Shown in pieces: positions 3,636 to 5,931 of a DNA stretch of 23,614 bases. The position numbers and the translations under genes are program-made. Origin of the DNA: a virus; the IMG/VR virus record IMGVR_UViG_3300025449_000055, positions 1-23,614 of that record. One strand, 5' to 3'. The notes below the pieces were generated by a model. It did no database searches. It was given only the letters and a program-made list of their open reading frames with translations, and was not told the DNA's origin. Numbering within the stretch: position 1 is the stretch's first letter; each line of letters begins with the position of its first letter.

Positions 3636-3851
3636 ATGAACAAAAAAGATCAAATCCAAATAGACCAAGACCTAATTAAGCAATTAGGAGGGTCATCAGC
3701 TTTAGCTAAAAAGCTAAATATTAGTAAACAACGTGCTAATAACTGGATGAATAGGGGAATACCCCCAAGCATCAAATTAGCTCATCCAAATATTTTTCTT
3801 AAAAGGAAAAGTAAAAATGTTGAAAAAACCACACCTGTGCAGAGTTTGTAA
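3636..3851 (+). CDS. Small helix-turn-helix regulator (Cro-like)
   Basis: A 71-aa protein with a helix-turn-helix at about residues 18-45 (GGSSALAKKLNISKQRANNW, then MNRGIPPS). The plan matches Cro/YdaS-type regulators: 'G-x-x-x-LA-x-x-L-x-[IV]-[ST]-x-x-x-[IV]-x-x-W-x-x-x-G-IP'. There is no Shine-Dalgarno sequence before the ATG, and the promoter places the transcript start at the ATG, so it is probably made from a leaderless mRNA, as lambda CI is from PRM. It likely binds the inverted repeats just upstream and controls the early operons. Which promoter it represses cannot be told from sequence. Confidence 0.8.
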   Translation: MNKKDQIQIDQDLIKQLGGSSALAKKLNISKQRANNWMNRGIPPSIKLAHPNIFLKRKSKNVEKTTPVQSL

Positions 3852-4335: not shown

Positions 4336-4485
4336 ATGGCTAGGGTAGCTCCCGAAAAGACGATTCGTTACCGTCCTGCCAATGTTTTTTCAGTAACGTC
4401 AACCAAGAACGTAAGGTTATATGCACTACTACAATTTCCATATTGGGGATTATCAATCCCATACCCATCACTTAACTGTGATTGA
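4336..4485 (+). CDS. Possible 49-aa protein overlapping the replication gene
   Basis: A reading frame beginning MARVAPEKTIRYRPANVFSV and continuing TSTKNVRLYALLQFPYWG. It is the only open frame covering 4336-4420, and its composition looks protein-like. However, it has no clear ribosome site and runs 65 nt into the start of the DUF1376 gene in another frame. It could be a small leader gene or chance. No function assigned. Confidence 0.3.
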   Translation: MARVAPEKTIRYRPANVFSVTSTKNVRLYALLQFPYWGLSIPYPSLNCD

Positions 4486-5203
4486 AGACATAGCTTTTCG
4501 CAGGTTGCTAGATCATTATTATCTGCATGAAGCACCAATAAAACAAAGAACAATTGCTAGACAAATTCGTATGAAAGATTACGAACAGGAAGTGCTATCT
4601 GTTTTAGATGAATTCTTTCGAGATACACCAGATGGATATATTCATCCAAGAGCAGATGAGGAAATTAAGAAATTTAGGGAACATCAAGGTATTTCTTCTT
4701 TTGGAAGTTTTATCAGAGATAACCCAAATTTGAAACATTTAGTAAACAAATCTAGGTATATTCATTACTTTAATGAGGGTAAATTAGAGGAATATTTAGA
4801 CACTTTAAGGTCACATGATGGGTACATGATGGGTACATCAAGGGTACTTGATGCAACCAATAACCAAGAACCAATAACCAATAACCATATATATATGGAT
4901 TTTGAAAAAGTTCTGAAAGCCAAAAACAAACCCTTAACTCAAACCTTGCTTAACTCTATTCAAAAAGAAGCAGATAAGGCAAAGATCAGTTTAGAAGATG
5001 CCATTAAGGAGTGTTGTTCAAGAGGTTGGACAACATTTAAAGCTGAATGGATTGCTAACAAAGCTGACATTGTTCATCAAACAGTTCCATCAAGCTCAGA
5101 ACGTGATCCTGTTCTTGTTAAGCTAGAAGAAGATGCTTTGAAGGCAGTATCAATGCCTGATGATGTTAAGGCTAAATTTAAGATGTTAAAGGGGGGCAAA
5201 TGA
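4421..5203 (+). CDS. DUF1376-type phage replication initiator
   Basis: A 260-aa protein. Residues 1-90 match the DUF1376/YdaU-type winged-helix domain found at the N-terminus of phage replication proteins: MHYYNFHIGDYQSHTHHLT, EDIAFRRLLDHYYLHEAPI, then an ADEEIKKFREHQ helix. The middle (about 130-160) is a low-complexity linker, whose DNA carries the tandem repeats described separately. The C-terminal part has KISLEDAIKECCSRGWTTFK AEWI, a DnaT/replisome-organiser-like helix set. It probably binds the phage origin and recruits host helicase. The start is supported by family conservation and AAGG four bases upstream. The stop overlaps the methyltransferase ATG. Confidence 0.85.
   Translation: MHYYNFHIGDYQSHTHHLTVIEDIAFRRLLDHYYLHEAPIKQRTIARQIRMKDYEQEVLSVLDEFFRDTPDGYIHPRADEEIKKFREHQGISSFGSFIRDNPNLKHLVNKSRYIHYFNEGKLEEYLDTLRSHDGYMMGTSRVLDATNNQEPITNNHIYMDFEKVLKAKNKPLTQTLLNSIQKEADKAKISLEDAIKECCSRGWTTFKAEWIANKADIVHQTVPSSSERDPVLVKLEEDALKAVSMPDDVKAKFKMLKGGK
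4816..4848 (+). repeat. Three 11-bp tandem repeats inside the replication gene
   Basis: TGATGGGTACA occurs twice in direct succession (4816-4826, 4827-4837), followed by a degenerate third copy TCAAGGGTACT (4838-4848). Eleven is not a multiple of three, so each copy is read in a different frame and gives different amino acids. The repetition is therefore at DNA level. I regard these as candidate iterons for the initiator encoded by the same gene. Confidence 0.7.
4855..4889 (+). repeat. Five 7-bp tandem repeats followed by an AT run
   Basis: The units are AACCAAT, AACCAAG, AACCAAT, AACCAAT and AACCATA, directly adjacent. An alternating (AT) run follows immediately. Seven is also out of phase with codons, so the peptide (TNNQEPITNNH) is only partly repetitive. 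Together with the 11-bp array six bases upstream, this gives the lambda-like plan of repeats inside the initiator gene next to an easily melted region. Confidence 0.75.
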
Positions 5204-5931
5204 ATGAGTTGGCTTTATTCGCAGGCGCTGGTGGAGGAATACTTGGGGGACATTTGCTTGGATGGCGAACAGTCTGTGCCGTTGAATGGGAACCCTACCC
5301 AGCAAGCGTATTGTGCGCCAGACAAAATGACGGACTTCTCCCGCCTTTCCCGATTTGGGATGACGTACAAACCTTTGATGGGAAACCTTGGAGAGGAATT
5401 GTTGACGTTATATCGGGAGGATTTCCTTGCCAGGACATTAGTTCAGCAGGAAAAGGCGCAGGAATTGACGGAGAACGATCAGGAATGTGGGGAGAAATGG
5501 CAAGGATCATTCGTGAAGTACGACCCAAATACGTCTTTGTGGAGAACTCACCAATGCTCACTTCTAGGGGACTTGGACGAGTTCTCGGAGACTTGGCCTC
5601 AATGGGGTTTGATGCGAAATGGGGAGTGTTGGGAGCAAAAGACGTTGGGGGAGTTCATCAGCGAAACAGAATTTGGATTGTCGCTTCCCACAATAGTCAA
5701 GTCAGATTCAAACGCAACATCAAAAAACCGTTATTTAAATTCAAGCCATTTCCGTGGGGCAAAGATGTCAGAGGGATTGAGGACTTGCGAAACAGATCCG
5801 ACCTCAGTCCATCCGTCATTTGGAGAAAAGACTATGGGCTGGCCGACTATGTGGACAGGGTTAGCGCCATTGGAAATGGACAAGTTCCTAGAGTGGCAGC
5901 AACAGCATGGAATATCCTAAGTGAAGATTGA
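5200..5931 (+). CDS. dcm: Short DNA (cytosine-5) methyltransferase
   Basis: A 243-aa protein with ordered C5-methyltransferase motifs: motif I ALFAGAGGGILGG (SAM binding), motif IV SGGFPCQDIS with the catalytic Cys at about 77, motif VI VFVENSP (about 113-118), motif VIII HQRNRIWIVAS (153-163), and motif X AIGNGQVPRVAATAW (223-237). It transfers methyl to C5 of cytosine, probably shielding phage DNA from host restriction. It is shorter than usual (typically 300-400 aa): only about 60 residues separate motifs VIII and X, so the target-recognition region is minimal and a standard motif IX is hard to see. It starts at an ATGA overlap. A long second frame is open through the gene. Confidence 0.92.
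   Translation: MNELALFAGAGGGILGGHLLGWRTVCAVEWEPYPASVLCARQNDGLLPPFPIWDDVQTFDGKPWRGIVDVISGGFPCQDISSAGKGAGIDGERSGMWGEMARIIREVRPKYVFVENSPMLTSRGLGRVLGDLASMGFDAKWGVLGAKDVGGVHQRNRIWIVASHNSQVRFKRNIKKPLFKFKPFPWGKDVRGIEDLRNRSDLSPSVIWRKDYGLADYVDRVSAIGNGQVPRVAATAWNILSED
5204..5920 (+). CDS. Overprinted protein in a second frame of the methyltransferase gene
   Basis: A 238-aa reading frame, +1 to the methyltransferase frame, that begins 4 nt after the methyltransferase start and ends 11 nt before its stop. It starts MSWLYSQALVEEYLGDICLD and ends with MGWPTMWTGLAPLEMDKFLE followed by WQQQHGIS. From memory, both ends match phage proteins listed as hypothetical beside cytosine methyltransferases ('GWPxGWTxLxPLETDKFxxW'). 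AAAGGGGGG is spaced 7 nt from this ATG, better than the 3 nt to the methyltransferase ATG, and the stop abuts the next gene's GTG (TAAGTG). It may be a real overlapping gene or a frame kept open by the constraint on the methyltransferase. Confidence 0.45.
   Translation: MSWLYSQALVEEYLGDICLDGEQSVPLNGNPTQQAYCAPDKMTDFSRLSRFGMTYKPLMGNLGEELLTLYREDFLARTLVQQEKAQELTENDQECGEKWQGSFVKYDPNTSLWRTHQCSLLGDLDEFSETWPQWGLMRNGECWEQKTLGEFISETEFGLSLPTIVKSDSNATSKNRYLNSSHFRGAKMSEGLRTCETDPTSVHPSFGEKTMGWPTMWTGLAPLEMDKFLEWQQQHGIS

Follow-up and report, generated by a model that had tools for sequence, protein, structure and literature searches.

What do two tandem repeat arrays of different unit size do inside the gene of a likely replication initiator? 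The question is raised by a stretch of viral DNA of 23,614 nucleotides (IMG/VR record IMGVR_UViG_3300025449_000055, positions 1 to 23,614), analysed over its whole length and referred to here as the window, in which a gene with a DUF1376 domain carries an 11-bp array, a 7-bp array and an AT run, the arrays starting about 390 bp inside the gene. Judging from sequence comparisons, we think it probable that this is a phage replication origin located within the coding sequence of its own initiator, made up of iterons and an opening array and containing an exchangeable cassette. The features on which the argument turns are the following.

4421..5203, + strand: DUF1376 initiator-like gene, 260 aa (PF07120 and PHROG matches)
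4424..4666 (residues 2-82), + strand: DUF1376 domain, predicted winged helix (AlphaFold2 and PDB structural alignments)
4673..4708, + strand: segment of ~12 residues, FREHQGISSFGS, just after DUF1376, proposed determinant of iteron type (its similarity tracks iteron sequence)
4673..4854, + strand: proposed exchangeable specificity cassette, type peptide plus iterons (identities between the window and locus L008)
4813..4853, + strand: 11-bp iteron-like array, ACATGATGGGT x3.7 (Tandem Repeats Finder score 61)
4855..4889, + strand: 7-bp array, AACCANN x5 (Tandem Repeats Finder score 59, relatives, fixed codons)
4887..4896, + strand: AT run ATATATATAT, ten alternating A/T bases (sequence, just 3' of the 7-bp array)
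4895..5065, + strand: C-terminal helical domain, O-like (phrog_678 match, AlphaFold2 helices)

The product of the gene belongs to DUF1376, PF07120 matching residues 2-82 with E = 8e-19 and 68.3 bits against a Pfam gathering cut-off of 30.1. PHROG 'primosomal protein' families match the N-terminus of the 260-aa protein, and phrog_678, 'replication initiation O-like', matches residues 159-215, also when the C-terminal fragment is searched alone (E=9e-12). In the AlphaFold2 model, a confident helical domain with a beta hairpin forms the N-terminus (pLDDT about 94-98 across most of the DUF1376 domain), a long helix from residues 76 to 100 contains the type peptide, the region over the arrays is disordered (pLDDT under 50 at residues 138-144) and confident helices return at residues 155-201 of the C-terminus. 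PDB chains aligned to the DUF1376 domain are mostly winged-helix/HTH, with weak scores (best Z 6.2), and Foldseek with the whole model against the PDB gave nothing below E = 1.

In named relatives, the DUF1376 gene adjoins a P-like or DnaC-like helicase loader or a DnaB-type helicase; in the window, the gene directly after it encodes a cytosine methylase, not a loader. This C5 cytosine methylase (PF00145, 5200-5931, +) shares its bases, in a different frame, with a 238-aa ORF (5204-5920, +), which matches other PHROG methyltransferase families and whose frame is conserved across 99% of its length in phage records (tblastn), making a fully overlapping dual-coding gene pair possible. Upstream of the DUF1376 gene lies a YdaS-like/Cro-like regulator (3636-3851, +), and this order of regulator and DUF1376 gene is the ydaS-ydaU order of the E. 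coli Rac prophage.

Both arrays are real repeats. Theirs are the top two Tandem Repeats Finder scores in the 23.6-kb window, the next best being 43; none of 300 first-order random windows matched either score, and of 5000 within-gene synonymous codon shuffles, 8 attained the 7-bp score and none (0/5000) the 11-bp score. Read by eye, the 11-bp units are ACATGATGGGT at 4813-4823 and again at 4824-4834, ACATCAAGGGT at 4835-4845 and a partial ACTTGATG at 4846-4853. The 7-bp units are AACCAAT at 4855, AACCAAG at 4862, AACCAAT at 4869 and at 4876, and AACCATA at 4883-4889, the program's own extent being 4855-4887 with 4.7 copies and the five units to 4889 being counted by eye. The preliminary description of this DNA had placed the repeats in the DUF1376 gene, and its coordinates and account of them hold; it had set the arrays six bases apart, a distance that shrinks to 1 bp if the incomplete fourth copy of the 11-bp unit is included.

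To avoid selection on the array, relatives were collected by residues 1-90 of the DUF1376 protein only, giving 79 viral and 32 bacterial-genome genes. An AACCANN array of at least three units lies at about the same place in 75 of the 79 viral genes and in 15 of the 32 from bacterial genomes, while a different 6- or 7-bp array occupies that place in the other four viral genes and in many of the bacterial-genome genes without AACCANN. These alternatives are AAACAAG, ACCCATT, ACCCACG, ACCAAC and ACAGAT, and genes with other arrays give z values of 10.8 at lag 6, 9.1 at lag 7 and 18 at lag 11. The comparison of this linker, proposed in the preliminary description, included a search for the case that would have counted against it, a conserved initiator without repeats: there is none among the viral genes (0/79), and a few of the 32 bacterial-genome copies, for instance L436 and L438, are without clear arrays. 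A 6-bp array (ACCAAC, ACAGAT or ATAAAG) stands in for the 7-bp one in L406, L413, L425, L427 and L172:5601-5620, E. coli Rac ydaU being among them, and E. coli genomes held no AACCANN array except for one weak match.

Starting from the DNA leads to the same genes. When 2.3 Gb of phage DNA was searched with 38 bp of the array, the matches were mostly DUF1376 or primosomal genes, and there are at least 120 stretches of AACCAWN x4, versus 69 in all for the control CAAACWN x4, used in place of a reversed-unit control pattern that was set aside because it overlaps real arrays. From the at least 120 sites of this pattern scan, 80 were analysed and 77 of them are on the coding strand of an ORF; among representatives of array-bearing ORFs, found via the DNA pattern scan or the protein search, 65 of 66 match DUF1376. 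Arrays have 3 to 9 AACCANN units, and an AT run 3' of them is not universal among relatives. Protein relatives keep AACCAATAACCAAGAACCAATAACC almost letter for letter while the DNA on either side differs, and different C-termini follow the same 7-bp array. In Vibrio phage 1.183.O, a 30-bp 'CRISPR spacer 1' annotation (L440:27814-27843) sits inside the DUF1376 gene linker, just upstream of the 7-bp array, and may represent misread repeats.

That the repeats are kept as DNA had been proposed from the window, and codon, phase and saturation tests in relatives agree. For the codon test, 50 non-redundant genes were taken from the protein-selected set by peptide pattern alone; this replaced a test on loci selected by DNA pattern, which is circular at the AACCA positions. 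The array codons are fixed in every one of these genes, Asn as AAC, Pro as CCA, Thr as ACC and Asn as AAC (50/50 each, with backgrounds of 0.50, 0.38, 0.28 and 0.50), and a preceding Asn is always AAT (26/26, background 0.50), adjacent asparagines being written AAT then AAC. Position 7 of the unit is occupied by T in 74-85% of cases, and in none (0 of 209) where, given the codon phase, a T there would give a TAA stop. Codon fixation and this phase rule are not predicted by selection on the peptide and thus point to DNA-level selection limited by the reading frame. Across iteron types, the 7-bp unit is 88% identical in DNA at synonymous saturation; in relatives the 7-bp array has 32% GC versus 54% for the iterons and forms, together with its 3' edge, the least stable DNA within the gene. 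What is constrained in AACCANN is the DNA itself, and the unit is nearly alike in all iteron types.

Upstream of the 7-bp array, divergent linkers have the 11-bp period in common and not the sequence. Across 70 linkers that are at most 70% alike, the identity between bases 11 apart (lag 11) is 0.464 versus 0.269 in codon-order shuffles (z 25), with further peaks at lags 22 and 33, a weaker shoulder at 12 and little else. The repeats vary widely (GTTCAACG, CCCCAATAGC, TCAGA-based, AACCC/GGGTT, CATGATG), and iterons of one type are found in both orientations. They are best read as type-specific iterons that would be bound by the DUF1376 protein itself.

The type of iteron follows the peptide directly after the domain. 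Similarity of this peptide correlates with similarity of the iterons at a partial Mantel value of 0.72 given DUF1376 identity (permutation maximum 0.077), where the permutations ignore phylogeny and the main guard is a comparison at codon saturation: among pairs with DUF1376 less than 50% identical and near saturation, iteron sharing is 0.29, versus 0.07 in unlike pairs, a fourfold difference. Sharing at synonymous saturation indicates that the pairing of peptide and iterons predates recent exchange. The partial correlation is still 0.70 when only non-overlapping stretches are compared, residues 1 to 12 of the peptide and the 34 bp closest to the array on its 5' side, and control segments give 0.08 (end of the DUF1376 domain), -0.12 (N-terminus) and 0.02 (residues after the array). 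DUF1376 identity alone was rejected as the determinant, since 258 pairs at least 75% identical there and with unlike peptides share iterons only at background.

Recombination has left joints around these elements. Between the window and L008, the DNA is 85% identical over DUF1376, 30% over the cassette, 100% over the array and 91% 3' of it, and mosaic joints flank the array when the window is compared with L008 and with a second locus, L019. We lean, by a modest margin over the opposite view, towards DUF1376 initiators holding a self-contained cassette, in which a peptide of ~12 residues would travel with the 11-bp sites that it reads 20-200 bp further on, the many matched types amounting to a natural peptide-to-DNA recognition code flanked by a domain that stays constant and a 7-bp element that is universal and usable by any type.

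From these observations we infer an origin function for the arrays. Spaced by one helical turn, several initiator molecules would occupy the 11-bp iterons, making contact via the winged-helix DUF1376 domain and the peptide next to it, and would strain and open the A/C-rich 7-bp array and the AT run. The opened 7-bp array would then be held, probably as a single strand, a role suggested by analogy only, and the C-terminal O-like domain would recruit the helicase or its loader. Peptide and iterons would form a cassette of roughly 90-180 bp, swapped by recombination between the shared DUF1376 domain and the shared 7-bp array, the latter serving as an unwinding or loading element common to all iteron types. 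The preliminary description had compared the locus to lambda O/ori, which is borne out at the level of anatomy, with a winged-helix-like N-terminus, repeats and low-stability DNA in a disordered linker, and an O-like C-terminus; its suggestion of two binding proteins, or of one with two sites, fits one array being type-specific and the other common to all types. Turning points of the GC skew lie close to the array in some, but not all, of the six named phages. In Acinetobacter phage AbP2, the detrended skew is lowest ~25 bp from the array, which is not repeated in the other phages, and gene direction confounds the measure.

The most serious competitor, which we hold to be improbable but worth keeping in mind, also makes the locus an origin and takes the 7-bp array as a second double-stranded site, not melted, for another protein such as the helicase loader, a host factor or another face of the initiator. 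The 88% identity of the unit at synonymous saturation is more uniform than melting alone needs, and a unit number ranging from 3 to 9 would also suit such a site; the array is, however, the least stable DNA, and in some genes its units drift together to other A/C-rich 6-7-mers. We give a low probability to the arrays being regulatory, that is, self-repression operators or an mRNA element for their own gene and not an origin. DNA-level conservation and constancy of strand are predicted equally well by such a role, and the protein has a regulator-like winged helix (a weak match), yet the arrays sit about 390 bp into the gene, the 13-bp unit has 0 copies near the promoter at two or fewer mismatches, and the occurrence of one type of iteron in both orientations argues against an RNA element. 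Slightly less probable still is a role for the 7-bp array as a recombination hinge, a conserved block of homology for swapping initiator halves, without any origin function: this would account for the mosaic joints flanking the array (window versus L008 and versus L019) and for the same array preceding different C-termini, but it leaves unexplained the 11-bp period, the pairing of peptide and iterons, and a codon fixation that extends far beyond recent exchange. Replication slippage in a linker that the model shows as disordered (pLDDT under 50 at residues 138-144), with nothing selected as DNA, is very hard to believe, being contradicted by the codon fixation in protein-selected genes, the phase rule, the saturation test and a lag-11 peak that spans unrelated sequences.

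In the open-access literature searched, we found neither an earlier description of 7- or 11-bp iterons in phages nor a treatment of these repeats in papers that mention DUF1376. An intragenic origin of the lambda kind is known; for the two-array layout of DUF1376 genes we found no earlier description. The layout seems widespread, and many phages seem to keep the start of copying inside the initiator gene, with a changeable 11-bp set beside a nearly invariant 7-bp run. A common domain of 'unknown function' would thereby gain a likely function, and the arrays would make replication origins easy to locate in the very many phage genomes that are uncharacterised. With dozens of matched peptide and iteron types, the recognition between initiator and origin becomes directly testable, and the 7-bp element common to all of them raises the question of which partner or origin-opening step it serves.

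Among known systems, E. coli Rac resembles the locus in having a DUF1376 protein, YdaU, followed by a DnaC-like loader. The Rac prophage has an active origin, oriJ (PMC3945230), whose exact site we did not find in the open-access literature searched. The ydaU linker has a TGTT motif at 11-bp steps by eye, with a modest lag-11 score (0.62), and a weak ATAAAG array; it differs from the locus in lacking the AACCANN array. In plasmid RK2, the Rep protein TrfA binds its iterons as duplex, whereas of the unwinding element it binds a single strand and requires the full set of four 13-mers (PMC4081077). Both systems place double-stranded iterons next to another group of repeats. In RK2 these are the 13-mers of a plasmid origin; here they are of 7 bp, lie in the initiator gene and conform to its codon frame.

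The closest comparison is with lambda and the Stx phages, where the origin within the O gene consists of iterons and then an AT-rich tract, and the O initiator binds A- and T-rich single strands as well (PMC7466680). Here, too, there are tandem iterons inside the initiator gene, their binding being predicted, with an easily melted AT-rich tract beside them (the AT run at 4887-4896, and the stability of the array in relatives), and the C-terminus matches an O-like family. Loaders lie downstream in relatives; in the window a cytosine methylase gene comes next. The N-terminus is not of the lambda O family, Pfam finding DUF1376 only, so that the locus would work like lambda O/ori and is not classed as a member. 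It further differs from lambda in its 11-bp iteron unit, in the second, conserved 7-bp array beside the iterons, and in having its iteron type track a short peptide C-terminal to the DNA-binding domain.
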